A program made the position numbers and the translations under genes. Positions 2,600-35,640 of a stretch of DNA of 64,000 nt are shown here, piece after piece. Each line of letters begins with the position of its first letter. The stretch's first letter is position 1. The notes under the pieces were generated by a model, which was given only the letters and a program-made list of their open reading frames with translations, did not search any database and was not told where the DNA came from. Source of the DNA: Sphagnum magellanicum (taxonomy: Eukaryota > Streptophyta > Sphagnopsida > Sphagnales > Sphagnaceae); assembly GCA_021904315.1 (NCBI GenBank), contig CM038909.1, forward strand, positions 21,924,212 through 21,988,211, in the 5' to 3' direction.

Positions 2600-5500
2600 A
2601 AATTAAAGGAAATTAAGTTGTTTTCTTCATTTGGCAATGAACAAATTTTTTCCAAGCCTAGCCAATGCTCCCCACTTTTCATAGTCTAAACATAAAAGAT
2701 GACACAAATCACATTTGTGTTATTGATAAATTGAAAAATGCTTGAAATGAATAATATGCAAGGAATTCCCTTAAAGCAACTTGCTTTTGGAGCTTGTTAT
2801 TGCTGAAATAATGTTGAGTTGGTGGGGCAACTTGGTATTATTATTGTTAGTTGATGTATATGTAAACACAAACACCGTAGTTTACACAATTAAACCACAA
2901 TAAAATGCACTCAATTTGCACAATTAGATTTTAAATCATAATAAAATGCACCAAGAAAATATTTCATTTTTTCAAAATGGAGATAGTGCACATAGGAATT
3001 CCAAATTCTTCAACAATTTACAGATTAAAAAAAAAGGAACAGCTCAAAACTTTATCATTGAACTCAAAAACAATGTTTTATTTATAAAACTTCTTTGTCA
3101 AGTTTAGAATTTAGAATTTGATAATAACTTTGTCATTGAGTTTAAACTTTGAATAACAACATAAGGAGGTGGAGGTGGATAGTTGGGGATGGTTTTTTTA
3201 GAACTATTGTAACAAATGTGATGAAGAACCCAGAAAAAAAATTTAAAAACTCAAAGTTTAATGAAATTTGTTTGTTCCATCCATAAACTTATAGGTAGTT
3301 CAAAGTATGACAATGAAGCCATTGGGGGGAGTGGGGAGTGTGGGTATTTTTTGTTTCTAAAAGTTGTTGTTGTATAATCAAATCAGGTAAGATGCTACTT
3401 GTACACATTAACCATGACAACAATGGGGAAAATCTGACATAATGCCAACTGTGGGTTGCTAAAAAAGCGTGATTGAATGCTTTTTGGAAATATCATTCAA
3501 TTTCCCCATGAGGAGGGGAGTCCTCAAATGTCTGCGGAGTGAGTTCAGTCTGGAAAATAGTGTCAAATTTCCTTGACTTGTCTGGCAGAAAAAAACTCCA
3601 GGATACAAAACAAAATCCTCTCAACTATTTAGCATACCCAGCACCATCAACATGAGGCAGGTCGAAAATCATTGATCTTTTGACCACACCAACCCATTAT
3701 TAATACAATTCAATTTAGGTCACATCACATTGAATAAAAGATTAATTCTCTTTTAAATCTTCTCTTCATATTTGAATGATTTTTGTGAGTTTCTTGACAT
3801 ATTCAATACACGATGTTTTTTTAAAAAAATGTTTTCAATAAGGGAAGATTCAATTTCTATGTAACAAAACTAATGGAAGTGAAAATGATTTCATGGAAAA
3901 TTTATATGGACCTAATGAAATCTTGTTTTGGTACCATAGACTTCGAAGGAACAAATGATAATATATTAGTATTTTGACTTTATGTCAATTTGATTGATAT
4001 TTGTAATATGAAACCCAAGTTGTTGTTATCATTACTAATATGGGTTTGGTTTTTAACAATTGTGGTATTGCTAACAATATCATTTTTCAAGCTTGTAAGT
4101 GCCAATGTCCAAAGCTAGATAGGAGTATGGCAAAAGATTAAGTATTCAAACTTTTATTTGTTGTTCATTATTTGCAATTTTTTAAAATTATGGATTGCAT
4201 TGGTTGTGCATTGTGTGCATGACATATTATTTTTTGTTTTATGCATTTCAATTGTATGAATCAACTTCCAATATCATATCATGCTCATCCACACCCCACA
4301 TGAATGCCAAAAAAAAATGAAATATCAATACCATATACAAGTAAACAAATGGTAACAAAATAGGTGGCATATCAAAAATCCAATTAAAAAATGAGATAAT
4401 TTTAAATATGAACATAAAAAATAGATTTAATTTTTTTAAAAGTTTCATTAAAAAATCATTGGAGTCGTCCATTTGAATTTATGACAAATTAAACTTGAGG
4501 AATTTTAATATAATATTAAACAATAAAAAAGTACACTTGAAATTGATTGGTCAATATGGTGTTCAAACAAATGTGAACAAATGTGACAACTAGAGTTTTA
4601 TACTTGCTTGGATATTAAGTTGATTTTCTTTTCCAACATTAGTCAATATCATATTAGGTGATAATTAAATTGATAATTGACAAATCAAGTTTTACATGAA
4701 AATTAAGGTCATTTTCATTTTCTCCAAATGTTAATATTGCAATGAGCAAAGGCCCTACACAAGTCTAGTTTTTAATGTAGGGGGCTCAACGTAGCTAGGG
4801 TTTATTCCTAAAGTTTAAAATTTACATTTTCAAAGTTTGAATTTTTATTGTTAACATGGTAGATAGGCTAAGATATCCAAAAAGCCTTGCAACCATGGTC
4901 TTGCGGGCCAGGACATCCACATGAATAAAAAGGCTCAATAGAAAATTAGAAAGGCATTATGAAAATTTTGAAATTTACGAAAAAATGTTTCTCATTTTGT
5001 TAAATATTAATTTTCTAATCTTGTAATAATCAAGTTGTGAGAACCACCTTAAATAACTAAATGTTTTAAAATTGATGAAAATGGAAACCTTTGAGAACCA
5101 ACTTTGTGAAAAAAAAGAAAGTCCTAAAACCCAACTAGTTTTTTAAAGCTTGAATTTTAGTTTTTTTTAATGAACTAAACTAGTTCTTAAAACTTTTTTT
5201 AAATAAAATAAAATCTATAGTTAAAAATTTAAAAACAAAAAAAAAAAAGTGAACATCACCCAACGTTGGTTGAAACCTACTTTTACATTACAACATTTAA
5301 TGAAATAAATATATACTAAATATAGATATAAAAATCATCATATATTCAAAATGTGTCATCAAATGAATATTTTATTTTTTATTGTTAGAATGTACTTGAC
5401 ACATAATTCAAACAAAAGTTCACATTGAAAAAAAGAAGTTTCACAAATATCTATATTTTTAAAAAAAGATTAAAAAATGAAAATTATAAAAATTACTGAA

Positions 5501-6534: not shown

Positions 6535-7548
6535 TTTTTCATCCTCGTTCCGCATTTCGGGTTCCGTGGTCTCTTCCTTTTTTCCTTCATCCTCGTTCCG
6601 CATTTCGGGTTCTGTGCTCTCTTCCTTTTTTCTTCATCCTGGTTTCCGCATTTCGGGTTCTGTGCTCTCTTCCTTTTTTCTTCATCCTGGTTCCGCATTT
6701 CGGGTTTCTGTGCGATCTTCCTTTTTTCATCATCCTGGTTCCCGCATTTCGGGTTCTGTGCGCTCTTCCTTTTTTCATCATCCTGATTCCCGCATTTCGG
6801 GTTTCTGTGCGATCTTCCTTTTTTCATCATCCTGATTCCCGCATTTCGGGTTTCTGTGCGATCTTCCTTTTTTCATCATCCTGGTTCCCGCATTTCGGGT
6901 TCTGTGCGCTCTTCCTTTTTTCATCATCCTCATTCCCGCATTTCGGGTTCTGTGCGCTCTTCCTTTTTTCATCATCCTGATTCCGCATTTCGGGTTCTGT
7001 ACGCTCTTCCTTTTTTCATCATCCTGATTCCACATTTCGGGTTCTGTGCGCTCTTCCTTTTTTCATCATCCTGGTTTCCGCATTTCGGGTTCTGTGCTCT
7101 CTTCCTTTTTTCATCATCCTGATTCCGCATTTCGGGTTCTGTGCGCTCTTCCTTTTTTCATCATCCTGGTTTCCGCATTTCGGGTTCTGTGCGCTCTTCC
7201 TTTTTTCATCATCCTGATTCCGCATTTCGGGTTCTGTGGTCTCTTCCTTTTTTCTTCATCCTGGTTCCGCATTTCGGGTTCTGTGGTCTCTTCCTTTTTT
7301 TCATCATCCTGGTTCCGCATTTCGGGTTCTGTGGTCTCTTCCTTTTTTCATCATCCTGGTTCCGCATTTCGGGTTCTGTGGTCTCTTCCTTTTTTCATCA
7401 TCCTGGTTCCGCATTTCGGGTTCTGTGGTCTCTTCCTTTTTTCTTCATCCGCATTTTGGCTCTCTGCTCTCTTCCTTTTTTCTTCATCCGCATTTTGGCT
7501 TCTCTGCTCTCTTCCTTTTTTCTTCATCCGCATTTTGGCTTCTCTGCT
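6535..7548 (+). repeat. Minisatellite, ~47-49-bp unit, about 22 copies
   Basis: The array is built from a unit containing gcatttcgggttctgtgc, then gctcttccttttttcatc and atcctgattcc. About 19 units keep the cgggttctgtg core. The last three (about 7440-7548) are shorter and degenerate, with gcattttggcttctctgc. Unit length wavers between 47 and 49 bp, so the reading frame changes from unit to unit. The long open frames seen in several frames on both strands are therefore products of the repeat, not a conserved protein. The pyrimidine-rich array stops about 200 bp upstream of the start codon at 7743 and could form its promoter or 5' UTR region (inference). Confidence 0.95.
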
Positions 7549-16365: not shown

Positions 16366-19300
16366 ATGGCATTGGTGATGACCAAGGAATGGATACGCAA
16401 ACAATGCAAACAAAACAAATTGTATCAGACTCCCGCATTGAATGATCGGCTCTACCTTCACAACCAGGGATTCAGCGTCATCGAGAATCTGGAGGAATAT
16501 ATTGTAAGCAATGGCGTTTCTGGCAATCCTCTCTCTGTCTCTGTCTTTTCTCTTCACATATTGTCGCACAAAAGTTTGCTGAAGTTTTGGCCATATCTAA
16601 TGGCAGCAGCAGCTTCTTCTTCTTCTTTTGCTTGCTTGCTTGATCTTGCAGAGAGAGATGTACATAAGAACAAGAAGAATTGGTCATGTTGTGCACAATA
16701 ATCTGCTTCCACAATCTGCTGGTTGTTGTTGTTCTATAAGGGAAAAAGGAAAGAAAGTGCGGATCCATTGTAGGTTTTGCTGAGGAGATTCTTCTTCAAC
16801 AAAAGGACACTCCTTTCTGAGGTGCCAGAATGTTGTTGTTATGTTGTCGGTGCAGGAGGTGAAGTTTCTGTATTTGGAGAACAATTGCATTGAGAGCTTG
16901 TCTGGATTGAAGCTTTTGACTCGTCTTCGTTGCCTGTAAGCCCCTCTTTTCTTGCTTTTGCACTCTCCTGATCATCTCTAAGCAACCTTCCTTTCTCACA
17001 CTCTACTGGCTCCAAGCTTTCTATGCATTCTCTTGACTCTGGTTTCATATCAAAGGGACTCTGTCCCCACCCATTTTCTTGACACAACAGATCTAAATTG
17101 GGTAATTGCAATATGGAAGAAGAAGTTTCTAACTTGCTATTTGTTGCAATTCTTTTCATGTGGAGGAGGTGCTCAGGTATCTGCAGAAGAATTGTCTGCG
17201 ATGCATAGAACACTTGGAGCCTCTGAAAGACCTTGATACACTCGATCTCAGGTTTTTTTTTCCCCTCTGTATCAAAGCGCCATTTCCAGTAACAAATGGA
17301 ACATGCACAAGCAGTCTGATGGAATGGAATCCCAAGCTATCTTGCATCACATCTAGGGACAAAGGAAGAGTCTCCTAGAAAACCCTAATTACACACAGTG
17401 CAAATTCCCATGAAGAGTTTGGAGACCATCAATGTTTTATATAGCATTGTCCGCAACCTGAATTGTGGTGTGTACCTGGAGCTCTGCCTGTAAGAGGCAG
17501 CTCCCTGAGAGTTAGGAGAGAAGAAAGAGAGATCCATTTTTCCATTAAAGAAGAGAGAGAACTTTGCAAACAACATGCTCCAGTGGGTGAAAGATGTATG
17601 TGTGTGTGTGTTGTGTGTACAGTGAGAATATGCTGACCAAGTTGGAGAAACTCTCATGCTGTCGGTTTTTGACAATATTGAATGTTGCAAGCAATTACCT
17701 GCGATCCCTTGATTCCATCATTCATCTCATGCAGTGCCCAAGCATTATGTAACCCTGCACCTCCTTTCCACCCTCTCTCATTTCATTTGATTACCTGCTT
17801 CTGAATGCTTTTGTGCAGCTTTCCACTCTTTTCCACTTTTGGAGCAGCTGGAATTTGTGTCTTCCACATGGAGATTGCATTGTGGGTGCATGTTTCCACT
17901 CTTGAAACAGCTGTCCAGAATCTGTGTCTTCCACACGGAGCTTGTATTGTGGGTTATGAGGGAGTTTCATCATCATGGTGGAGGGAGAAGCAGTGTTCTG
18001 GATCTGTCAAAAAACAAGTTAGAGGATGGAGATGGGGTGCTAAAGGTGGTGAAAGCATTACCTGTGCTTGCCTGTTTGTACCTTTCAGGCAACCCCTGTG
18101 TTTCAACTATCCCTTTCTATCGCAAGGTGCCTCCATTGCACCACCTTCCATGCGCCACATCCCACACACATTGCACATGAGGAAGATATGAAAGCCTAAG
18201 GAGTTACAACAGCAGCAACTCTCCTAGTTCATCTAGAGCCGTGTTTTCATTTTCTCTTCTTCGAATCAAAATCTGAAGAAGAAAGAATTTCTTTGTTGGA
18301 ATTATTTCATGCTTCAGATTTTGATTCAACAAGAAAGAATGGGATACACGGCTGCTTTGCAATGAACTCTCAGATGCTGAGAATTGGGGAATTGGTAGGG
18401 GTGGCTGGCAGACAATCATTTCATCTGCCCCACAGCTCAATCACTTGGATCAAAAGCCAGTCTTCTGGGATGAGCGTCTCTACGCAGAGGCCTGGTCAGT
18501 TGTTTCAGCAGTGAACTTTAAGAATGATGAACATGTGATCCCTGTCTATTTGCCATAGTTTCCATAGAATTTTCCACAAATACAAGAATGGCAGCATAAT
18601 GAGCTGACAAACTGACCAAATGCAATACAGGGCGAGAGGTGGAACTGAAGCTGAATCAGAAGAGCGTGACCGTGTGAAAGACATTCGAGAAAAAACTGAA
18701 ACGCTCCAATTTCATGGTCAACAGTATCTGCTCAGCAGTTTTTCATCTTTTGGCATGTATCAGGGAGACAAAAGGAGAGAGAGAGAGAGAAACCTTGAAG
18801 ATAATAAACAAGACTTCCTCATGCTGCAATCCTCCTGTTCATCTCCAAAGAAAAATAACTTGCAACTTCCTTTCTAGCACCCAATCATGAGCTGTGTGCA
18901 TAGAGGAAGCTGATACTTGTCCTGGGTCTTCAAACAACTAGCTCAATATGGTTGTTGCTGATGACATGACTTGAAAAGTGGGTGCAGCAATGAGAAAACT
19001 GCGAGACCAAAATGCCGAAAAGCGCATGCAATCAATTGAGATTCCTTTGCTGCAGTTTGATGATGATGAGTTCTATCCTGACCCTGTACCTGACATACAA
19101 CCTTCACTACCTTTGTTGAACCCTGGACTAAAACCTGATGAAATCTCAAAACTCAATCCTGTTTCAATCTCTGAGGATGGAACCAAGGACTTTGTGGAAC
19201 CCAATCATAAGATTCAGGATAAGCTTGAATGTAAGCTTACATGTCAACCTGAAACTGCAACACCAGATGTTGAAAGAGAAGAAGTTAACCCAACACATGA

Positions 19301-20885
19301 GTGGAAAGTTGCGAATCTTCAGCTGCAATTGGATGGTCATTTGTCAAGGTCCAATTGTCACCATCCTCAGTCCAAAGATGCAATGGAAGTTGATTTCCAA
19401 GTTCAACATGGTAGCCCATGTCCACCCTGTCCTCAACCAAATCCTGAATCTGAGAATGTTCTTGCATCAGAGTTTGAAACCAATTCTGGCATTGGACTAC
19501 CAGTATGTAGTCACCAACCTCAAGTTCAACCAGTAGGTGATCCTCATGTCCAAACAGAACATGAACATCATGCATCTCAATGTGGTCTTTATGAGCTTGA
19601 GCCTAATCCTCAATCTGAGAGTGAATGTACTGGCAATTGTGAAGTTGAGCCTCACAATGAACCTGCAATTTCTAGAATTGAAGTCAATTCAAAGCAACTC
19701 CAAGTCCAATCTAAATTCCACACTTTCAGCAAACTCTCTAGGTTTCAATGTGATTTTCAGAATGAGGAGCAATTCCTTGTTGAAGTTAGACCAGAAAGGG
19801 AGGTTCACATTGAGAACCAAATCCTGGCTGATGCTGTCACACTTCAAAGTGGAGCTGCTCTTGAAACTGAGCCTGGTTCATCCACTTGTTGCAAATTCCA
19901 AGCTGTTTCTGATACTAGTCCTGAGAGAGGACATGACTCAGATCTGGTTTCACCTCCATATAATGCTCAGACAACTCTTCTAGTGCGGGAAGAGGATCAC
20001 AATTCTGCACAGGATAAAACCTCCAAACCCAAGCTTCAAGTTGAGATCAAGGTTGAGCCCAAGTTCAATGCACAAAACAAACCTGACCTCCAGAGTCAGA
20101 TGGATCTTTTTGTGAACTGTGGAGCAAATCATGAGGTTACATGTGATCAGTTTATTCAACTCCAGTTTTCATTGAAGCATCAAACCCAGATCACTCCTGC
20201 CAATGAGCCTGACCATAACTCTGGAGACATTATCGAGCAAGAGCTTGTCCAACATACCAGATCTGAGAATCCAGCTGGGATAAATGTGGAACTTTTCTCA
20301 CAACAAAATATTGGTGTCATACAAAAGTGGGAATCCTTACCTCCAACAAGCACAGATCTCCACATTTCTAACAAGCCTGGCCATCAATTCAAAGGACAAC
20401 CTGAAGCTGCTGCACCTTCACATGAACCTCAATCTTTGAGGCAGTCAGATGCTCAAAGGAACTCTCTGTTTCCACTGAGTTTTATTACTCCAGAAGCTGT
20501 TAATCACATTAACCCAGTTTTTGAGTTTGATCCAAAAGTCCAGAAATCACCAGATCTGACGTTTGAACTCACCCAGACTCAATTGAATCCTGTTTTTGAG
20601 ATTGACACTGAAGATCAACCCAAGTGTGACCTTGATGGAGTGTCACTACCTCATGTCAAAAATGGAGATCGAGACGAATCTGGATTAACAGCAGAAGGTG
20701 AGTGCACACCTGATTCCAAGCCTGACAGATCCACAGATTTGCCTCATCTTGATCTTCACAAATATCACATTTTAGATCCTACATTGAATGGCAACATTCA
20801 AAGTGAAGAAGAAGAGTTCTGTGAAGGCAAAATGGCATCTGACATATGTTTTCTCAGTAGGTGTTTGTCATTTGACAATGAATGA
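16366..20885 (+). CDS. DNAAF1: Dynein axonemal assembly factor 1 orthologue (LRRC50/ODA7 family)
   Basis: Exons: 16366-16503, 16856-16935, 17177-17251, 17623-17748, 17994-18126, 18412-18494, 18631-18716 and 18988-20885. All have GT donors and AG acceptors and the phases chain without error to 872 residues. The start [15 protein letters not shown] and then [17 protein letters not shown] match the family opening. Leucine-rich repeats follow ([50 protein letters not shown]), then the LRR cap ([24 protein letters not shown]), where animal proteins have LDDRPVF. DNAAF1 proteins act in the cytoplasm to preassemble dynein arms for motile cilia. Residues ~241-872 come from one 1.9-kb exon that is Gln/Pro/Glu/His-rich, low-complexity and probably disordered. 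In a land plant the gene implies flagellated sperm, probably expressed in antheridia (inference). Confidence 0.9.
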
Positions 20886-23024: not shown

Positions 23025-23432
23025 TTAGCCGGGGCCAACTTTCGGGATGTCATAATGCTCACTAAGATTTGCCAAGTATTGGTTGAATTCTTCAACTCTC
23101 TGACGATGAGATTTGCTCGCCACTTTGGCCAGGCGCCGAGTCTCCAGCTTCTCTTTCTGCTCGTGATACTTCTTTTCAGCTGGCGTTCGGTGGTCCTCCG
23201 CAGCCACCACCTTTTGCCTCTCAACTTCCTGCTCTTCTTCTTCTTCTTCCCGCCTGCCGTGCGAAGCTCCCTCCGCGTTGCCTTCCTGTCCTGCTTTCAA
23301 TAACATCAGCTGCTGCTGCTGCTGCTGTAGTGATTCTCGTTTACGTTTCTTCTTCTTCTTCAGCCCGCCTTTCACATCCAACGCCTTCCCCTTTAACTTC
23401 AACTTGCCTGGCACCACGTTGGAGTACGACAT
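23025..23432 (-). CDS. FAM32A: FAM32A-like protein
   Basis: A single uninterrupted exon of 135 residues runs from the ATG at 23432 to a TAG at 23025. I preferred this ATG over one eight codons upstream because the family begins close to MSxYxxVxxGxLKLKG, and here the sequence reads MSYSNVVPGKLKLKGKAL. A Lys-rich segment (GGLKKKKKRKRES), a short Gln run and an acidic stretch follow, then the conserved C-terminal block: RTPAEKKYHEQKEK, SKSHRQRVEEFNQYL, EHYDIPKVGPG. In human spliceosomes FAM32A is a late factor that promotes exon ligation at 3' splice sites; the plant protein probably shares this nuclear role (family knowledge). The region upstream carries a CT-rich tract at about 23547-23572. 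Nothing suggests damage. Gln/Glu homopolymers are the only variable part. Confidence 0.9.
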   Translation of the reverse strand: MSYSNVVPGKLKLKGKALDVKGGLKKKKKRKRESLQQQQQQLMLLKAGQEGNAEGASHGRREEEEEEQEVERQKVVAAEDHRTPAEKKYHEQKEKLETRRLAKVASKSHRQRVEEFNQYLANLSEHYDIPKVGPG

Positions 23433-25395
23433 GTTGAGAGTTAACACCAGCAGCAAACAAAAGAATCAGCAAATGCTACTAAAAAACCTCCATCTCCCTT
23501 CTTCTCATTCGTTCTCTCTTTCTCTCATCCTACCCGTTCGTTTTCTCTCTCGCTCTCTCTCTCTCTCTCTCACGGACAAGCCCTCGTTATTGTCCAATGC
23601 ACACCAAGCCCTAAAAGGGAAAACAATGTATACACGCAACTCTGCGAGTCCCAAAAAAAGACCTTAAAATTTTTGGGTTAGGGTTTCACAAAACTTCTGC
23701 ATCTTTTTCTTATAATTACAGAATTTCAGAACCCTACTTGTTTAAGATATTTATCCCTTCAACTCCTTCTTCATCCTGCATAGTTCAGGGTTTTTTTCCT
23801 TTTCTATTTTTCCAATTTTTTGATATTGAAAATTAGGAGAAAATTTCCAAAACAATTAGCAAAATAGTTGAATCTACACTACGAAAACAAAAAATTTGCA
23901 ATCCTTTTGTCGGAAAAACAAAACTTGGCATTCATTAGAACATTAGGTCTAGTTGTGTTTTTTTTGACACTTCTCATCCACCAAAAAGTCCTTTGGACGA
24001 GTCTCTTTTTTTCATTAGGTTTTGGGCTCTTTCTAAAAGTCTCATTAACTATCTAGTAGCCTTTTATTGCAAGACTTCTCATCCAAAGTCCTTTGGATGA
24101 ATCCATTTTTCTCGTTACATTTTGGACTCCTTCTAAGACCTCATTAATCTATCTATTTAGCTTTTACCATAAGACCTCTTTTAATCCCAAATCCTTTGGA
24201 TGAATTTTTTTTTCTCATTAGGTTTTTGGCTTGTTTTTAAATGTCATTAGTTGTTGGAGACTAGCAATGTACAACCATTTCTCTACATATTTATTATAGG
24301 GCTCATCCCTTTCCTCATCTAGTAAAGGTAAATTCTCATATATTAGTTATTCCATGATTTCACATGGTGTGAAATTAAGTCATTACTTTGTATTTCTTAG
24401 TAAATTTTCTAAATTTGTCCTCTCTTATAACCATTTCTAGTGAACATCTTATTGATGTGGTAGCACACAACATTGGACAAGAGTTTCCGAAACATATATA
24501 ATATATCTTGCTACCTTCTAACACTTTCTTATTGTCTTTTTGCACATTCTTAGTTGTTCCTTGCCTGAATTACATAATTTAACATCTTTTACATTCGATA
24601 ACCAATAAGCTTAATGCTCTCGTCTAAAGAATTATGTCCAAGCAACTAGTTTTAGTGTTTTGATTATGCTAGTAGTCTTAAGGTCAATTCACACCTACTA
24701 TTAGGCATCAAATGTTAAATTAAGATAACATTAAGGTTAATGTTTAGAAAATTGGGTTGTTGTAGTTCAATGATGACTCTTACCTTTATCATGCTCGCAA
24801 CATCGCCTTAAATTCACATCACATTCAATGTTTCATCATGGAAAATGTAGCTTCACCTTGTTCAAGCAAGTGCATTCATAAATGTCCAAATAACATCAAT
24901 GTTTTAGTTTGCGGCATTCCTTTTTTTGCACAACTCCACTTCACTTTTTCATTAGCTTCTTTTTGCGCATGTGTCAATTTGTTCTGTAGTTTTGGTTTTG
25001 TGCAATGTTTTGTTCCATCGCAATTTTTCACAAGCTCCTATCAACCCTCCTCTACGTCAACTTGTTTTGTAGATGTGTGACCTTTGTTTCGCACAACATT
25101 TTACTTTGTCATTGTTTCCTCACAAGCTCCTCTTAACACTCTTATTTCATCTTTGTTTTCTTCCTCTCAGCAACTCACAATGGATGAAATGCAACTTGAA
25201 ACTATTCTTGTAATTGGTTGTGTTTGATTCTTATTAAAGATTTTGCAAGAGATTATTGCTAAATCCATGGAATTTTCTATAAATTTGGATATGGTTGGTG
25301 AAGAAACCATTAACAACTCAAATTTTGTTGTTGCAGTTCTACACAATTATCCCATTTCCATTGTGATGAATAAACTTGTCTAAAGACTTAGGCCA
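23433..25395. other. FAM32A upstream region, then AT-rich DNA
   Basis: The first ~230 bp contain CT-rich simple sequence consistent with the FAM32A leader or promoter. Beyond ~23,700 the DNA is AT-rich, lacks genes, and contains the tandem repeat listed at 23963-24252. Confidence 0.5.
23963..24252 (+). repeat. Diverged tandem repeat, about 100-bp unit, three copies
   Basis: Three successive units share cttctcatcc, aagtcctttggaYga, tttttctc attaggttttgggctc and a trailing tctcatta. They start near 23968, 24074 and 24168 and are separated by small indels. No coding potential is visible. Confidence 0.75.
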
Positions 25396-25396
25396 C

Positions 25397-25842
25397 TAGG
25401 TGAAACCTAGATCCACCAGCTAGTTCTCAAGGTTTTTGTTTGTTGAATATGATGATGCGTGTTGGGTTGAGAATTTTAGGATGACAAAGGATACATTGTT
25501 TTACATTGCCAATCAATTGAAGCCTTTAATCGCAAAGCAAGACACATCATATAAGAAATTGATTCCTATGGAAATTAGAGTGGTGTGTGCAATATACAAA
25601 CTAGCACAGGGTGTGAATTTTTTCATATGTTTTGAGCTATTTGCCATGGGCAATCAATAGTGTCTCTTGTGTTTCATGAGGTTTGTTTTCATAATCAACA
25701 AAATGTTCAAAATTTTCATATCCTAGCCATGTGGAAATGAAATGCAAGCAATGATGGCAAGTTTCAAGAATTTGTGTGGCTTACCTTTTGTAGAATCAGT
25801 GTTCCAATATATTTGCCCAGATTTAAGTGTTGCAATCTAATA
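25397..25842 (+). pseudogene. PIF/Harbinger transposase, N-terminal half, broken
   Basis: One frame reads PRSTS, a stop, FSRFLFVEYDD, then WVENFRMTKDTLFYIANQL, KPLIAKQDTSYKKLIPMEIR and VCAIYKLAQG. This matches the helix-rich N-terminal part of plant PIF/Harbinger (HARBI1-like) nucleases, which read W-FSRFL and FRMS-T---L--L-PLI-KQDT. In the same or a shifted frame PCGNEMQAMMASFKNLCGLP follows, corresponding to the WPxG...F....GLP region just before the first catalytic Asp. Two tryptophans are replaced by TAG (25421-25423, and the TAG before PCGN), and there is a stop after MGNQ. Homology ends near GLPFVESV, so the catalytic DDE core is absent. It is a dead fragment, in the same orientation as the C-terminal piece at 34165-34641. 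Confidence 0.8.
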
Positions 25843-26155
25843 GGGGAAAAAAACCTACATTTCTACTCCTATAATCCAAACATTTAAGTCTTCAATCCTA
25901 AATTTTTGTGATTTTATTGGCTCAAAAAAAAATGTCATGTAGTACATCAATTTGATGCTTACAAAAACTAAATGCAACATTCTACACAATTCTAAGTAAC
26001 TTAGCAAACTCTAGCAGGCCATGTAGCACATTAGCCCTGCCCACAAGCGCTCCAACTAGTTCGAATATAACCTGAGTAGTATAGATGAAAATGAAGACTT
26101 TTAACAAAATCAGGCCTGCCAGATGCTAGAAACAGTATATCCAAACCTAAGCACA

Positions 26156-27025
26156 TTCCCAAACGAATTTTATGACTTAACTGTGTCTGGAATAGACAAA
26201 TCAACATCATCATTTTCTTCCATTATTCCAGCTAGGGTTGGAGAACTGAAAGCATCCTCAAACTGCTGCCAGGTGAAACAAAAATGGTTGCTATCAAAAA
26301 GGAATAAAAAAAATTGACCTTCTCAAGTTCTTCTTCCACATTCTTTGCAATGTCATTCTTCTGCTCAAAAACATCATCAAGAAGCATCCTTCGTACACTA
26401 GCCCGCACAACTGCTCACAAACAAACAACAACATTCTACTCAGAATTGAAACCTGATCACATGAGGAACACATATATATATGTCTATATAGTTGCCATTT
26501 TGCTTGAACATAAGGCCTACTCATTGAAATCTGATACCGATTACATCAACTGTTTGCAACAAGGATTGCTATACTTAGCATCAAATACATATGATTTGAT
26601 TTGTTCCCGTGGATTCGTGAGCTTGTAGAAGGCATCTTCAACAGTCTCAATGTGTGCTTGATATTGCACCGATGCCACTACAGTCACAAAGACATTGTCC
26701 TGAACATCACAGACACACAAACCCCACAATTCCTACCCCTGAGCTCTGATTCATCCTCACAAGACCACTGATAAAAGATCCAAGCAAGCAGGCAGGTGGG
26801 TGGGCGGGGGAGAGGGGGAAAAAAAACAACACCAAACCTTGCTCTTGGTTTCGCATTGGACATCAAGCTGCTGGATGCGAAGGGACAGAACACCTGCAAC
26901 ATTGACACCGCAGCACCATGGACACAATGGCAACCAGGGCTAAGCACAGTACTGAATTTTCCGAATTTTTCCTTGACAGCAACAGTGGATTGGTCCACCT
27001 GGTATAAACCACACACTTGCCCCAT
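26156..27025 (-). pseudogene. Hypersensitive-induced response (HIR, SPFH/prohibitin family) pseudogene
   Basis: Minus-strand exons match plant HIR proteins: 27025-26838 ([20 protein letters not shown], then [13 protein letters not shown]), 26699-26579 ([15 protein letters not shown] ... [18 protein letters not shown]) and 26410-26319 (VRASVRRMLLDDVFEQKNDI, AKNVEEELEK). Intact HIRs are ~285-residue proteins that oligomerise at plasma-membrane microdomains. Lesions: the frame slips after PGCHC, and [20 protein letters not shown] continues one frame over. The donor of the second exon reads G|CTAAGT where G|GTAAGT is expected. The whole C-terminal half (from YGYEIVQTL onward in the family) is missing. 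Instead, an unrelated exon-like end (QFEDAFSSPTLAGIMEENDD, terminating in TAA near 26180) follows. The phases of the three exons otherwise agree, showing descent from an introned genomic copy. Confidence 0.85.
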
Positions 27026-27599
27026 GTCTCCTTCACCCCACCAGGTCTGAGATCTGCACAACACAACAACAACAACCCATTTTCAACACTCAGATGATGC
27101 ACAAAAATCTGGCATAAGTAAGAAGACTGTAAACCACATCAGTCCCAACAAAGCAAGAGAAAATAAAATAGCAGGCAATAAAACCCAAAGGTTGTTGTTT
27201 GACCCAAAGACAAAAAGAAGTCCGACACAGTCTCTGTCTGTCTTTCCTTTGGCAGGAAACAGGATTCCGAACTTTTTCCTTCCAACCCAAGGAAGAAATC
27301 TTGAAACAGATTAGTTAGAAACTCAATCAGCAACAATTTGTAAGTATTGAATCCATGATGCACTCAAAAAAGGGTGAAGACAAAGGGGATCATCAATCCT
27401 TCCTGCTTTTGTATCAATCTCGTAGCAATCCACTTATCTATATGTGAGAAGGAATAGGCATTTGAGAATCACTCACCATCTGTGGCTACCTGGTTGTCTC
27501 TGTTGAGGGGCAGGCAAAGCTTCTGTACAAGCATGGCTTTCCTTCCATCCAATTGATTTTTGTTATCAGGAATACTCCCTTCACCAATTGAAACTCTCA
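27026..27599. other. Non-coding DNA between HIR and GTD-binding pseudogenes
   Basis: This would be the upstream and 5' UTR region of the HIR copy on the minus strand. No exon of either neighbouring pseudogene is recognisable here. Confidence 0.4.
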
Positions 27600-27669
27600 C
27601 TCTTAAGTTCTGGAAGATCGACATAGTGTGTTATAACAGCAGCAGCTCTTGTTGTGCGCGGGTAGAGGA

Positions 27670-29033
27670 GGTTCTACCTACATATCTGCTGCTACAGAGG
27701 AGAGAGAGTTCTTGGAAACAAACTGGCGAAAGGAATGCTCGTCGAAGACCAATAGAAGAACTCACCAATGCTACTGAAAGCAAAAAAGCTGCTGAAGAAG
27801 AAGAACAAGAACAAGAAGACGGTGATCAATTGCACACGAAACAGTATGAGGAGCTAGAGGAACCACTTCCGCAAACCGAGCGAGAGGCGCTGACTGCGAT
27901 GTATTTGGAACTGGAGAAAGAGAGAAATGCGTCCGCGACAGCGGCAAACGAAGCCATGGGAATGATTGCGCGTCTCCAAGAAGAAAAAGCCGCAGTGCTG
28001 ATGGAAGCTAGACAGTTCCAGCAAGTGGTGGAACAGAAGTCAATGCACGATTAAGAAGTGATCGAGGGTCTGCGAGAGGTCATTGTAAGGATCGAAGAGG
28101 AGAAGCGTGAACTGGAAGAGGAAAACAAGTTCTACAGATCGATCGAGGTTACTCCGTGCGCAGATAGAGGAGAGCATACGTGCTCGAAGCATGCTGTTGC
28201 TAACCGCACCTTCCTCTTCTGCTGAAGAGAGAACAAGAAGAAGCCAAAGCCTTCTTCTTCAGAAATCGCCTTCATCAACGTCCATGTGAAAAGAAAAATT
28301 TCCTGCTAATGTAAGGCCTGTTGCAGCAGATGTCCAAGAAGAAGAACAATTGAGATTTACAGGAAGAACAATCAAGTCGAAGAAACATCTTCGGGGTCCA
28401 ATTGTTCGAGAAGAAGCATCTCCGAAACGTGGACTGCCTTAGCTGGAGGATTCGAGCATCATACCTGCGAAGGGCAGTGATGTGAACGCTACATCGTTGG
28501 CAGTTTCTCAAGTGGTACAAGCGCAAATGGACGCAATCATCGGAGGAAGAGGTAATAAGGCATTAGGGTTAGGGTTCAACAGCTGAATAGATACAGCAAC
28601 AACGAGTTCGCCCAAGGCAATGGGTGGTAACAACAAAAAGAAGCAAATTAGCAGAGCACCGGCTTTGGCAGTTTTATTTAGGACTGTTTCTGGGAGGGGG
28701 CGTTGTAGAAGGTGAGTCTGATTCAGCTCAAGTCTCCGAGATTATTTCGGCGGAGGACTTAGATAGCACCTCTGAAGAAGTTGAGAGCACCATTAGCAGC
28801 AGCAGCAATTCTGGACTTCACCGAAGATCTCGAAAGTTAGCGACGATGATGTCGGTCGATGAGAATAGTAGCCTTCTCTCAGCTGCTGCGCGTGAGAGCG
28901 ACGAAGTGCAAAAAGTGTCAGAGCTTAAGGCTACTGCACATAGCCGAATGAAACACACCCAGCCTGCAAGCACACCATCTCACTTTCAAATCCAAAAAAG
29001 CCCTCTTAGTTCAAATGTAATCTTCAACCAGGC
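27670..29033 (+). pseudogene. GTD-binding (DUF593, myosin-binding protein) pseudogene
   Basis: The frame ending at 28054 carries the coiled-coil zein-binding/GTD-binding signature: LTAMYLELEKERNASATAAN, then EAMGMIARLQEEKAAVLMEA, then RQFQQVVEQKSMHD. This domain binds class XI myosin cargo tails in plant MyoB proteins. A TAA at 28052-28054 sits where the family normally has Gln; beyond it the same frame continues with EVIEGLREVIVRIEEEKREL and EEENKFYR, so the stop is a nonsense change. The frame then slips near 28140 (LLRAQIEESIRA in another frame) and a third frame (28316-28587, VQEEEQLRFTGRTIKSKK) contains a TAG at 28440-28442. An acidic Ser-rich frame from about 28710 to 29033 may be the former tail. 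No membrane segment is recognisable. Several independent lesions make this a pseudogene, unless unusual splicing removes them all. Confidence 0.75.
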
Positions 29034-29992
29034 AAGCCCAAATTCTTGTTTCTTCTTCTTTTGGCGTTTCTTGTTTGTTCTCTATCATCTATTAGTATAT
29101 CTTTGGGTGCCTAATATGCTTCTTTCTTCCTGTTCTGTATCCTGCATCCATATACTCTCTGTCTGAATCCAATTCTGGAATCTATACAATCTGGTGTTTA
29201 GGCATGGCAATAACTGGAGCAGAGTCACGCATGGCTGTTCAATCTGTGCCTTGTTATCCTCATTACAGTCAACAGTCGGCTCATTATAGAGAATTTGATG
29301 AAGGTGTTTCTCCACAACTCTCTTCTACTTATCTCTGCATATAAAGATATTTTTGTGTGAGTTATTTGCTGCAATCTCAATCTGGTTCTATTCTTTTGAA
29401 TCATATCAATCAGTTGTCATGAATGCATGTGTCTTAACACCAAGAGCAGGAGTTAAGATTTCCAAGACTTCAAAGCATCTTTCACGAAAGTATCTACTAT
29501 GGCTGAGGCGAGCGACACATCTCTTGAGGCATTGCTGAAATGCATTTCCCACATGTGTCTCCATTTTCACTATCTGCTTAAAGATTGATATCTTGTTTGA
29601 GCTGTTTACACATCTCCCTTTTGTGATACCCATGAGACGTAGTTAAAAAGTTCTCTGGAAGATGCATGTTAGCCTCAAGGTTTTGTGTGCACACTGGCCT
29701 TGAACAGTCCAGGTCAAGAACAAGGTGAGTGTACATTTTTGGGTCACAAAAGTGTGCGCTGCAAGGATATTTCCTAGTTATTCACAAGTATGTCAATGGG
29801 GGATCTTAAATTTGAAAATCAACAATGCTTGAAGCCTTGGTTGGGAGATTCTGCAACTGCAACTTGACCGTATCACAGCTTGTGGAAGCTGCCATGTTCA
29901 GCATGGATCAGGCACTGTAATGTGCTTGTGATAGCTGAATGCCACTAATTCCATCTTGACATTCTCTGAAATTATGTTTTTGTGGGTTGTAG

Positions 29993-32545
29993 GTGACCAG
30001 AGTGATTTACATATCATAATCTTTGATGAGATTGATGCCATTTGCAAGGTATGTCCTTCTGGAGCCATTTTGCAGTCTTGAAATTATGGTTTTGTTACAA
30101 CAATCACTTCCTGGTTAGCACCTCTGTAGTTTGAAGCTCCTGATCTCCTACTCAGATGCAATGAGTTATTTTCCCCCAGATAATACAATCCAAGTCCCTA
30201 ATTTCGTGCAATGCCAGGATTGCATAACACTAGTAAAATGTATAGCATGGTTTTCTTGGACGTTGTCCTGACCAAATTATGTGAATGTTGGTTTCTGGGG
30301 CTGGGTAAAGTTTCCAACCCCTCTATCAGTAGTAACACTGGCATCATGGTTTTGGGTGGTGTTTTGGACATATTACAAGTCATAGAGTTGAGAATCAATT
30401 GTTGGTACTCATTCCCCTACATAGTTGGCGATTTTGAGGATCTTGTTGCCAAAACTGATGTGCACATTTCTTTGGGACACAGACTAGAGGTTCTACAAGG
30501 GATGGAACAGGAGTGCATGACAGCATTGTCAATCAGCTGCTTACAAAGGTACACACATAATGTGGACATGTGTTACCATTGCTACATTATAGGAGACCCC
30601 TAGGTCAGTTAGAAATCTTCAAGTGCTAGTTGTTCAGGTCTTCTTAATCCTGAGCTCAAACTTGCTAATTTTAAGGCAGAGTGTTCAAATCTTGGAATTG
30701 CTGGACAGATTGATGGTGTTGAAGCCCTCAACAACATTTTGCTCATTGGAATGACAAACAGAAAGGACCTCCTTGATGAGGCTCTGTTACGGTAAGTATG
30801 CTTATTTGAGTTTTCATTTCTCATGGATAGAGACTCTACAGCATTACTGTTGTGCAACAGGATAGCTGTATGTTGAATGGAACAGGGATGGGCATCCACA
30901 TGAATTCAAAGATGTTATTGCTTTGTAGAGCAACATTGGATTTTGGTTTGACCCTATATTTTGTTGCAGGCCAGGTCGTATGGAAGTGCAAATTGAGATT
31001 AGACTGCCAGATGAGAAAAGGCGGTTCCAGATCCTAAGCATCCATTCTAACAAGATGAAAGAGAACTCATTTCTCAGTGCTGATGTTGACTTGAAAGAAC
31101 TTGGTAGACTCCTTTGTTGGTCAATCTGATAATTTTGTGTGGGTTGAAATTTTAATGCATTTGTTTCATTGACTACAGGTGGTTTGTTTCATCTAGCACA
31201 CTGTTAAGGAATTATTAGACCAAATTGAAGCTAGTTCAATCAAGCTAATGCTTTCTTCAGAGGCCTCTATACTTGTGCAGTTACTGTTTAGGAAGTGGTG
31301 AGCTGGTTATGAAGCATTCTGGTTTGTGCAGCATCAAAAACAAAGAATTTTAGTGGAGCAGAGTTGGAAGGGCTGGTTAAAAGCGCAACATCTTTTGCTC
31401 TCAACAGGTTTTGTAACTTTCAAGTGACATCTTTTTCTATTTTGGGAAATTTAGATTTTGGCAAAATCAAGAATGCGTTCCCAAGCCTATCTTGCTCTAG
31501 CTTAGCAGTACCAGCAACAACCCAGTCAACTGAAATTAGAAGCAGACCAGTCCATGCTACCTTTACCACACCTCTCATGTGTTAAGCTAGTTGGTTGCTT
31601 GGATTATACACTAATTCTGACAATGTAAAGAAGCAAGTAATCAAGAGTTGCAGACACTCTTGAATTCATGGTTGCTTTCTGTTCTGCTAAGCCCAGTTCC
31701 TGCTTTGTGATTGCTTCAAGCAAGTGAGTGCTGCAGACCTTTCAAGGGAAATAGTTGAGGACAACATCAAAGTGACCATGGATGATTTCATGTCAGCTCT
31801 CAATGAGGTGAAACCTGCATTTGGTGCAGCCATCAACACTCCCGAGATGTGCAGGTTCATCTTTCCTGACTGTTTTCAAACAAATTGCTTTCAGATTGGT
31901 TTTGTGTCTAACAGCCAGTAAAGATTTTATTGCTTATGGCATGGCACTCTCATTTGTCTTGGGGGGATGTCATGTAAACACTGCAGCACTGTACTTTAGC
32001 AGGATTACTCATTCAGTTTGGGCATTACAGATTGAATGGGATGCTGGATTGTGGAGAGAGACATGCACATATTCAAAGAACAGTCATGACTTTTGTGGAG
32101 CAAGTATCATTCAAAGTGAGAGAACACCTCTGCTCACTTGCCTCCTTGAAGGACCTGGTGGCAGGTACATATCTTTTCTTGGGTGCAATCCTCTCAATGC
32201 ATTGTGAGAGGCTGCAAGAGTTCCATGCTAAGGGCAGTTGCTATGAGTTCTGTGCTGGTGCTTTTGCTTAGAAAATGCTTGAAGCATCAAGGACAGAGTC
32301 ATGCTTCAAATGTGTTTTCTCCTTCCTTCATCTTTCATAATGAGCAAGTTGCAAATATCCATATGTGAAGAGGCATTTCTGCTTGTTTGACTTGCTTCAT
32401 GCAATTAGAGTAAGTGGCAATGATTTTCAGTTTCAGCATAAGAAGTAACATGTATACTATCACATGTTTTTTACTTGCCTGCAGTGGTAAGACAGCATTG
32501 GCAGCAACTATTGGAATTGAAAGTGGTTTTCCATTCATTAAAATT
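29993..32545 (+). pseudogene. NSF (SEC18, vesicle-fusing AAA ATPase) gene fragment, truncated at both ends
   Basis: Eight exons chain in phase: 29993-30048 (DQSDLHIIIFDEIDAICK, D1 Walker B), 30483-30548 ([20 protein letters not shown]), 30709-30791 ([20 protein letters not shown], sensor 1), 30970-31103 ([19 protein letters not shown]...), 31332-31407 (KTKNFSGAELEGLVKSA), ~31729-31854 (IKVTMDDFMSALNEVKPAFG), 32031-32164 and 32485-32545 (SGKTALAATIGIESGFPFIK, D2 Walker A). NSF drives SNARE disassembly and is ~740 residues. Here the N domain, the D1 Walker A and nearly all of D2 are absent. Exon 32031-32164 is one base short of frame: GERHAHIQRTVMTFVEQV is in one frame, TPLLTCLLEGPGG in another. 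The start of the sixth exon is also shifted relative to the family. Retained introns show a DNA-level duplication, not a retrocopy. Confidence 0.9.
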
Positions 32546-33555
32546 GTAAGCTCAACTTTATCTATGCTTATGCTCCATTGTTGAGGTCTAGGTTACTCTC
32601 TTTCCTGCTTCTTTCAACCTTGGCTTGGTTTGTATCTTTTCCATGTGAGATTTGTGTGTGTGCTTGGTCCGATAAAGCAGGAAAAGACTTTCCTTCTTTG
32701 TGCTGTAGCTTTCTGAATTCTTGTTTTCTACACAGGTGTCTGACTGGGTACTTGTCTCTGACTGTGAAGATGTCTCATATCTTCAGCTGCAATTTCATAT
32801 GTTTGTCCAATGCTCTACACTCACAAGTCTACAGTGGAAACATCTTTGATAAGCTGTTTGTGTTCATCTTTGTGCACGCTCTACTTTCAGTGCTCTGTCT
32901 AGAGCAGCACAATGCTCTCAATGCATTTCAATGGACACTTCAGAGAACACCGGAGAGTTTGAGAACCCTGCATCAACCCATACACCCCAGAATTATACCT
33001 GTTCCACCCTCACATCAGGTGACTCAAGAAAAGCAAAGGCAGTTTCCAACAAGTATAGGTCAGGCTGACTTGAAAAACTGTAGGAAGTACCAGTCTCACA
33101 GACTATAGACTCAATTTGCCCAGCATTCATCTTGCAACTACATAGGAGGATCGGGTATGCGCAATCAAGCATCACCTGAGCTCAGGGTTTTGCAAGAGAG
33201 GAACATGTGGGGGCAGTCTTATGCCCTGGAGTCTTCAAGAATCTCAGAGTGTTATGGAATTCGGGAACCCAAACAAGGAAAAAGGGATAGCACTCAAGCC
33301 AGGCCATTGCAGACATTTTCTTCTTTGGCATCAATTGGTAGTCGAGGCCTGAAAAGCACCGTTCTGTTGCACAATGCTCTTTTGCTATTGCTAAACCTTG
33401 GAAAATGTTCCCACAATTTTGTAACTTTCCTTTTGGAATATGCGGTTCTTTGCCTTGTGCATGTGTTTCTTAGTGATTGTAGAGTTTTGTTGATCGATCT
33501 GTTGTTGACAAGCACTCTTGGTAATTCTAGATAGCACATTGAACAAAGCAGATGA
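32546..33555. other. Unassigned sequence downstream of the NSF fragment
   Basis: A plus-strand frame at about 32950-33106 (TPESLRTLHQPIHPRIIPVP...) and another at 33157-33534 (ASPELRVLQERNMWGQSYAL...) have fairly natural composition. They do not match the missing D2 part of NSF or any family I recognise, and they lack clear splice partners. Confidence 0.3.
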
Positions 33556-33683
33556 ACCCTAAACCCTAAACCCTAACCCTAATAATGGGACCCTAACCCT
33601 AATAGTGGGACCTTAAACCCTAACCCTAACCCTAATAGTGGACCCTAAACCCTAAACCCTAACCCTAACCCTAATAGTGGGAC
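33556..33683 (+). repeat. Interstitial telomeric repeat tract
   Basis: About 128 bp of CCCTAAA and CCCTAA units are interspersed with a short spacer (aatagtgggac or aataatgggac) that recurs at least four times. CCCTAAA is the plant telomere repeat. The interleaved spacer indicates an amplified internal array, not a fresh chromosome end. Confidence 0.9.
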
Positions 33684-34027
33684 CATGTGACACATGGCGA
33701 TTCAAACTCTCAAAATGCTCATGTTGAGACACGTGGCACATTTCGATTAGCCAAACACAAAAGACGTGGCCATTTCTTGGCCATTTGATTTAGAAAATTC
33801 AAGATCACAATCTGGTTTCCCAAATACTAGAAACCATGCCATGTGGCAACAACCCATTAGTTAATCGGAAAAAACATGGCCACTCCTTACCCACACAATT
33901 AGGAAAAACAAAATATATACAAAATGATGCCTTGTATACATAATGTATATATTGGCCCCATTGGATGAAACCATATATACTACATTTAGGCTCCATCCAC
34001 CATTTGATGATGTCATGCTGATGTAAT

Positions 34028-34156
34028 TGTCGTTTGCTACTATTTGTCGTTTGCAACTTGTCTTACGCGACTAACAGCAAAATAGTTGTAAAATGTCGCT
34101 TTCAACTAAAAATTAGTCGTAAACACTAGTCGTAAATCAAGGGATTTCTACTAGTG
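34028..34156 (+). mobile_element. Right terminus of a CACTA (EnSpm)-like transposon
   Basis: The segment ends ...aagggatttctactagtg; its reverse complement starts CACTAGTAGAAATCCC, which fits the CACTA-family terminal inverted repeat. Preceding it are short repeated subterminal motifs in both orientations (gtcgtttgc twice, gtcgctttc, gtcgtaaa twice, cgcgacta), typical of EnSpm subterminal regions. On this orientation the element body should lie to the left. I could not find the matching left end. Confidence 0.55.
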
Positions 34157-34164
34157 TAAACGTG

Positions 34165-34641
34165 CACAATAGCATGGTTTTTTTTACCACATTGAAAGTT
34201 CAAATGTTATTCCTCCTTGGGACAAAAGGTATCCTTTGATCTCTTGGATTATGACATCATATAAGGAGGAAGGACCACATACGATTATGGAGTTGTTGTA
34301 TAATAAGAAGCATAAATGTGGTAGGTTTGTTGTTGAAAACTCCTTCAACATACTCAAGAAAACATTTCAAGAGCTCCTTGGGAAGATAAATTTACATGTG
34401 ACATTTGTGCCAATGTACTCACTTATTGTTGTTTACTACATAATTTGCTACGAAACCAAGTTGATTCTCAAATTGAGATGTTGATGCACATTCTTGAATT
34501 AAAAGTTGAAAGAAACTCGCAACAAGCTCAAAATGCTGATGATCCATTGGTTATTCACATTATTGAAGGTCGAAAAATACCTAGAAACATTTTGCAAAAG
34601 TTTGCAAAAGGAGTTAACCAGTTATCTTGGACTACAACATA
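34165..34641 (+). pseudogene. PIF/Harbinger transposase, C-terminal part, broken
   Basis: The frame YPLISWIMTSYKEEG, then NKKHKCGRFVVENSFNILKK, TFQELLGK and LHVTF matches the C-terminal DDE-nuclease region of plant PIF/Harbinger proteins (GDKGYPLLPWL...; ...R..VEN.FG.LK..FR). After ICYE the frame slips, and RNQVDSQIEMLMHILELKVE continues in a second frame to a TAA at about 34641. A small indel near 34206 also disturbs the GDKGYPL motif. The middle of the nuclease, with the first catalytic Asp residues, is absent. Confidence 0.8.
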
Positions 34642-34927
34642 ATTGCACATCAATCTCGTACAAGTAATTTATAAACCCTAAACCAACTCATGCATCAAAT
34701 TACTTTTTTTCTATGAATCAAATTTGCCATCCTTACAACTAAGTTGCATCAAAACTTTGCTACTTTTCAAGTCAATTACACATCATTAGTAGTCTGTATC
34801 ATTAGTAGTAGTAGTTTTTCTATTCACATGCTTGTTTGGATCAAATCTGCCATGTCCACAACTACATTGCATCAAAACCTAAAAATCTAATATTTTGTTG
34901 TTTAGATGTGAAGATTTATCACTTTGC

Positions 34928-35640
34928 TTACATGTCATTGTTGATTTTGTCTTCTTTTGTGGGTGTAGCTTTTACATGTGTAGCTTCTATAGGTGTAGTT
35001 GATGATTCAATGTTGTTGAATGGCTTTTCATGCGCCATATGAACATTACTATTTACCTTACATTTCCCTCTTGCAAATGCCATGTTCAAAACATTGGATA
35101 ACCCAACATTTGCATTCACCATGGTTGTTTAAGTATCATTCAAAACCTTGTCTCTTGTTTTGAAATAATTAAGTTGTTTGTCCATCATGAGCTCTTAGGT
35201 TTTGGATCTTTTCTTTTCAATGCGGTCTAATGTCTGCAATAACATTCAAATGTTCTTCTTAGTCATTTTTGCCATGATCTTATGGGTAGAGGAATAAGTT
35301 CTCTTTATTCTTGTACTTCTAGTTGATCAAATTGTTGTTCTTTCAATTCCCTTTCCAACTCCCTTGTTCACTAACTTGGGTGTTTCTTGATTTTGTCCAA
35401 GTTTAATGTGTGTAGGTAATTTAATTGTTGTGGTGTGTGCAGGTTGGTGGACTCTTATAATGTGTGAAGGTTGTTGGATTATTGCAGGTTGTGTGGGACT
35501 TTGTTGAACTTTGTGCAATTTCATTGGTGTTGTTAAGTCTTGTTCTCCTTTGTTAATAAGTGAAAAGGAGATTGTTTTACCTAGAGTTGGGATTAGAGTT
35601 ATAACATTTGCAGCAGTTAACATAAACATCTAGCCATCAT
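34928..35640 (-). pseudogene. Broken transposon-type ORF, possibly the accessory ORF1 of the Harbinger element
   Basis: Read on the minus strand, a protein-like frame continues across several stops: an N-terminal part with PTQPAIIQQPSHIIRVHQPA, a middle with LLQTLDRIEKKRSK and MMDKQLNYFKTRDKVLNDT, and an end with TTMVNANVGLSNVLNMAFAR. Two stops are TAA where Gln is plausible. PIF/Harbinger elements usually carry a second DNA-binding ORF next to the transposase, which suits the position and the opposite strand, but no Myb/SANT motif is recognisable. Confidence 0.35.

Follow-up and report, generated by a model that had tools for sequence, protein, structure and literature searches.

The question raised by the 64,000-nucleotide stretch of the Sphagnum magellanicum genome analysed here (contig CM038909.1, positions 21,924,212 to 21,988,211; G000:C3:21924212-21988211 in the genome that we searched, and hereafter the window) is how intron-bearing fragments of three host genes—HIR, a gene for a GTD-binding (MYOB-like) protein, and NSF—came to lie side by side between two parts of a PIF/Harbinger transposase. 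With little room for doubt, we consider that window positions 25794–34156, on the plus strand, constitute a left-truncated copy of a nonautonomous CACTA transposon of the Pack-CACTA kind, here designated A, which element carries DNA-level fragments of those three mutually unrelated genes.

The HIR fragment occupies positions 26319–27025 on the minus strand, antisense to A, and consists of three exon pieces (26319–26423, 26571–26765, and 26888–27025 in a search of the moss's own genome) separated by introns. Spliced by hand, these exons matched the Band_7 (SPFH) domain of Pfam with an E value of 1.1e-16; taken singly, the pieces gave no Pfam match for HIR, and an adjacent piece near 26180–26260, which is not HIR-like, gave no Pfam match either. 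The GTD-binding cassette, in the sense orientation, is a 2.0-kb block at 27619–29604 on the plus strand, delimited by the comparison of copies and by a tree, and includes a GTD/Zein-binding domain (PF04576) at 27872–28123 on the same strand, with an E value of 3.5e-26. The fragment of NSF (vesicle-fusing ATPase), likewise in sense, runs on the plus strand from 29605 to 32554, with its right breakpoint somewhere past the latter position; its exon pieces lie at 30480–32554, and the exons spliced by hand have a vesicle-fusing ATPase as their top match in PDB (E 4.1e-71). The three fragments that the first-pass annotation of this DNA had named are accordingly present, at a level well beyond chance, each on the strand given there.

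That annotation had also taken the retained introns as a sign of capture at the DNA level. For NSF, the one fragment whose collinear introns were compared with a resident gene, this proposal holds well: the resident NSF gene (L041; C5:5605500-5608499, 3 kb) is collinear with window positions 29650–32553 in three pieces, over exons and introns, at 70–85% identity, and the alignable introns argue for capture as DNA. Similarity to this gene in BLAST begins at 29650, 46 bp past the right-hand limit of the GTD block, and may, on inspection by eye, extend back to about 29608. Two NSF-gene-like loci, at C5:5606186-5607577 and C5:5726777-5727945, are separated by about 120 kb, and the first is the one that was read.

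The nature of the composite is best seen in its other copies. The genome searched comprised 439 Mb in 31 contigs, and all counts of matches in it are lower bounds. With a 501-bp probe taken from the GTD part (window 28000–28500), at least 25 matches were obtained, the window being the 25th; 10-kb stretches were read around the other 24, and the loci were assigned to A (17, the window included), to a second subfamily, B (six), and to two distant loci. The consensus of A measures 8919 bp, starts with CACTAGTAGAAATC, and ends with GATTTCTACTAGTG, and the family possesses CACTA…TAGTG terminal inverted repeats. Identical 3-bp flanks were found in 11 of the 12 two-ended copies, those 11 being 8.25–9.18 kb long. 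Not counted among the 12 are L013, L016, and L020, the right ends of which fall outside the stretches read, as well as the window copy and L019, both without a left end. Seventeen copies of the composite, together with these duplications, bear out the earlier suggestion of a gene-capturing CACTA element that had inserted into a Harbinger element.

The window copy, whose boundaries were derived from the other copies, corresponds to the consensus from position 543 through to its end, so that the left 542 bp are gone, the left terminal repeat included. Its right terminus, CACTAGTAGAAATCCC on the minus strand at 34141–34156, was located by a terminus search and by the comparison of copies; at position 34156, where the first-pass annotation had already placed a CACTA-type end, 13 further loci show the same sequence stopping as well, and the flanks beyond it differ in all 14 cases displayed. 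The left CACTA end that had been anticipated near 25.8–26.1 kb is absent: a terminus search of the window allowing three mismatches matched the right end only, the sole terminal repeat that this copy carries. The TAA at 34157–34159 (plus strand) would be what survives of the predicted 3-bp target-site duplication, the partner copy having presumably been lost along with the left end. No Transposase_21 was found in a six-frame Pfam scan of 25300–34700, outside which scan the deleted left 542 bp fall, and tRNA and Rfam searches found nothing. Repeats within 20–40 kb and across the whole window did not explain the layout, and an origin as a Helitron or a Pack-MULE was set aside on account of the CACTA/TAGTG ends with 3-bp duplications, no search aimed at Helitrons or MULEs having been made.

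The A copies stem from one recent burst, followed by C-to-T decay at CG and CHG sites. Upon alignment of 16 of the 17, the rearranged copy L011 being omitted, they differ by 1.16–1.65% from the consensus and by 2.0–3.0% from one another, in a star-like pattern with little structure, the exception being four copies that share two deletions. C-to-T or G-to-A changes make up 1430 of the 1883 differences, the rate of change being 6.4% for CHG and 5.4% for CG, against 1.5% for the remaining C/G and 0.36% for A/T positions, which excess at CHG and CG fits methylated, silenced copies. The comparison of ages by which the first-pass annotation could have been refuted gives a single age for the spread of A, whereas the captures appear to be older. 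A related insertion of 948–953 bp (89–97% alike), probably another small transposon, occurs at three places inside A, at consensus positions 134, 7968, and 5160 in L029, L013, and L016, respectively.

On both sides of A lie the remains of an old PIF/Harbinger-type element in the plus orientation. Its 5' part, encoding the N-terminal portion of the transposase, extends over 25147–25793, where it is broken off, as judged from genome matches and from the relative L034; the 3' part extends over 34157–35448, includes the C-terminal DDE_Tnp_4 portion at 34.2–34.5 kb, and is 70.5% identical to L034 over 34158–35448. Pfam recognised DDE_Tnp_4 in the C-terminal part (E 1e-7, compared with 6.4e-6 in the relative L037) and gave no match for the N-terminal part at 25424–25660. 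Window positions 25250–25793 have 24 other matches in the genome, at 64–74% identity, and four of the seven relatives read (L034–L040) hold both parts together, separated by some 200–215 bp with unaligned ends counted—213 bp in L034, the others being L037, L038, and L039. The flanking transposase parts reported initially are thus substantiated, and these relatives supply the middle that was missing between them; both parts belong to one Harbinger family and not to different subfamilies. Since identity to the relatives does not exceed 74%, the host element is much older than A; and since they hold the two parts about 200–215 bp apart, a single deletion at the left junction accounts for the truncation. 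We propose that one A copy inserted into the Harbinger-type element, duplicating TAA, and that a deletion across the left junction then removed 542 bp of CACTA along with about 210 bp of Harbinger, which single event is the simplest account, two deletions being also possible.

If A encodes no transposase, the source of its mobility may be sought among elements with the same ends. A search with A's right end gave 46 matches, from the best 40 of 214 candidates, and one for Transposase_21 gave 152, from the best 150 of 657 candidates. Among the right-end matches listed, 22 reach 94–100% identity over the full or near-full query, 17 of them being A and five being others, and four of these five pair with a correctly oriented left end to delimit large CACTA elements of 29.4 kb (G000:C12:16085758-16115176), 31.8 kb (C1:5655437-5687280), 37.6 kb (C11:13434302-13471916), and 56.8 kb (C1:2045056-2101817). 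All four have A-like ends (94% identical to A's on the left and 94–97% on the right), matching 3-bp duplications (TAG, AAA, ATG, and TTT), and a transposase, or two in the case of the largest; five of the six best-scoring Transposase_21 matches fall inside these intervals, in each of which the first lies 10.41–10.43 kb in from the left end. In the 56.8-kb element the two transposases are 24.93 kb apart, and the length of the element minus that distance equals the length of the 31.8-kb element within 11 bp, so that it has the look of an internal duplication, although a fusion of two elements or an error of assembly may lie behind it instead. From these comparisons the four 29–57-kb elements are the likely autonomous source of A, and most likely their CACTA transposase would, in trans, recognise A's ends and spread the element.

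As to how three cassettes came to be in one element, we consider it most likely that A is a mosaic, for three portions of it are each found on their own at other loci: the left end with HIR, the GTD block, and NSF together with a right end akin to A's. The HIR fragment is found at about 13 further loci, at nine of which A's left end lies 2–5 kb away at 93–95% identity, the spacing in A being 1.07 kb; the other four have no A-type left end among the best 40 of 249 candidates. The NSF fragment occurs at 10 or more further loci (at least 160 matches), and in 8 of 10 a relative of A's right end (82–83%) lies 1.8–2.0 kb from the same exon, compared with 1.85 kb in A; in one of the remaining loci the right end is about 10 kb away, and for the other there is none among the matches listed. 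Among those matches, too, no HIR-only and NSF-only loci lie within 45 kb of each other. At three NSF-bearing loci (G000:C8:17578945, C17:10859120, and C6:11204855) there is an inverted, 94% identical copy of 207 bp from inside A's right end, about 7 kb from their own right end.

The GTD block is what subfamily B has in common with A: its six loci share only window positions 27619–29604 or part of them. Four are two-ended, and all four have matching duplications, by which these four are identified as CACTA, the other two loci being L025 and L027; the subterminal sequence of the two-ended elements is unlike A's, and B carries a further 3' part of a GTD-binding gene that is absent from A. A tree of 23 GTD blocks divides A from B with support of 100/99, and A attaches close to the middle of the star that B forms, the root not being fixed. 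A 77% relative of the block, L032, has an open frame of 726 amino acids with a GTD-binding domain; L031 (G000:C18:9066500-9076499) is related to parts of the block at oriented positions 4766–5286 and has no GTD-domain match there. Near A's right end, at 33555–33690 on the plus strand, there is a telomere-like CCCTAA(A) array of a length that varies among copies; some 70 bp that take in the array are 95% shared between A and B (L018:9060-9129, window orientation) despite the differing subterminal sequence. To its left, a stretch at 32800–33540 (plus strand) overlaps a 330-amino-acid open frame of the family consensus; Pfam gave no match for this possible fourth fragment at 32.8–33.5 kb.

In the simplest reading, A would have joined its left end with HIR, the GTD block, and the NSF-plus-right-end piece from separate CACTA lineages, through the fusion of neighbouring insertions, which fusion and the order of joining we infer. 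A broader extension of this scheme, which we advance tentatively and hold to be possible though not probable, is one of cassette exchange, in which large autonomous CACTA elements serve several nonautonomous lineages, and cassettes pass from one to another when neighbouring insertions merge into a single mobile unit. The 56.8-kb element, with its two transposases inside a single pair of duplicated flanks, would represent such a fusion at an early stage.

If, alternatively, A captured each fragment directly and independently, the single-cassette elements would be deletion derivatives or independent captures and not donors, a view that we regard as rather unlikely. In its favour, internal deletions do occur, two being shared by four copies, the tree of A and B has no fixed root, and the HIR-only and NSF-only loci are known by their coordinates; but the differing subterminal sequence of B and its extra 3' part of a GTD-binding gene, the left ends of the HIR-only loci at 93–95% with a spacing longer than A's, and the NSF-only right ends at 82–83% are contrary to it, the last figure meaning that these loci are not deletion derivatives of the present A copies. 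To the debris alternative of the first-pass annotation, the piling up of unrelated pieces in a heterochromatic pocket, we assign practically no weight: old debris does surround A, as the Harbinger part of at most 74% identity attests, yet many contigs carry this very arrangement between the same ends, duplications flank 11 of the 12 copies that have both ends, and this reading fails because the HIR, GTD, and NSF fragments travel together. Spread by segmental duplication instead of transposition, to which the 95–97% likeness of the copies over about 8 kb might point, is just as remote in view of the 14 differing right flanks of 14 displayed (the window and 13 loci), the matching 3-bp duplications, and the star-like divergence. 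That the captured fragments constitute a selected chimeric gene is also highly improbable, even though frames of 222, 208, 191, and 330 amino acids remain open in the family consensus; five tests, whose frames overlap in part, showed no purifying selection on the captured frames, the nonsynonymous/synonymous changes, scaled to context-specific mutation, being 0.85–1.32 of expectation and stops being at or above expectation in four of the five.

Several observations nevertheless weigh against our interpretation of A as a mosaic Pack-CACTA element within a Harbinger host. The parental genes that had been expected were found in part, in that a resident NSF gene exists, but near-identical donors were not: the NSF gene read is only 70–85% identical, the GTD relatives are 75–82% identical, and HIR genes match the element's HIR at no more than 86% of residues, so that the capture would predate the burst, unless the donor has been lost or lies outside the sequences read. 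The right ends of the NSF-only loci are just 82–83% like A's, and these loci, like the HIR-only ones, were placed by coordinates alone. The rearranged A copy L011 is without the HIR part and has unequal flanks, AAA and TTA, and the window copy's own duplication cannot be checked, its left end being absent. The tips of the large elements are a few bases off A's, three of the four ending in TTGTG, not TAGTG. As to the Harbinger relatives, about 820 bp separate the two parts in L040, and the start of the 3' part is unmatched in L035 and L036.

Elsewhere in the window there are a 48-bp tandem repeat in 19 copies, open in several frames (6539–7450), a FAM32A-like frame on the minus strand (23028–23465; Pfam E 2.1e-13), and a 636-amino-acid open frame on the plus strand without a Pfam match (18975–20882). 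For annotation, the copies of A carry a warning, since many of the apparent HIR, GTD-binding, and NSF genes of this genome are probably cargo carried by transposons. The likely intermediates—single-cassette loci, the mosaic that combines them, and a likely autonomous source—are still present, so that the order of capture and fusion can be tested from sequence.

In the parts of the published sources on which we draw, CACTA elements are among the most abundant repeat types in the Sphagnum divinum genome paper (PMC9946827), and gene capture by CACTA has been described in flowering plants (PMC8903248; PMC1947982), which same process we now report in a moss genome. Our search of the literature on CACTA gene capture in Sphagnum, moss, and bryophytes, outside which most subscription journals fell, returned nothing that we recognised as this family. 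The host element, for its part, resembles PIF/Harbinger elements in its DDE_Tnp_4 transposase part, its copy in the window being decayed and interrupted. For the Pack-TYPE elements of Arabidopsis, rice, and maize, acquisition through neighbouring insertions remobilised as one has been proposed (PMC8903248), an idea with which the mosaic reading of A agrees. The Pack-CACTA elements of that study, whose main text makes no mention of "moss", "bryophyte", or "Physcomitr", have in common with A the CACTA terminal repeats, the 3-bp duplications, and pieces of host genes from more than one source locus, whereas A differs in forming 17 similar multigene copies in a moss genome, with each cassette also found apart. 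Tgm-Express1 of soybean (PMC1947982) is described as a single mutant allele, whereas the copies of A are dispersed through the genome and have a likely autonomous relative; and the putative autonomous Tgmt* of soybean (PMC2613891), a CACTA element of 20.5 kb, is likewise large and equipped with a transposase, though smaller than the elements of 29.4, 31.8, 37.6, and 56.8 kb described here. A is thus a known kind of element, a less usual instance of it in that three cassettes are combined as a mosaic, in a moss genome, and the likely source can be seen alongside.

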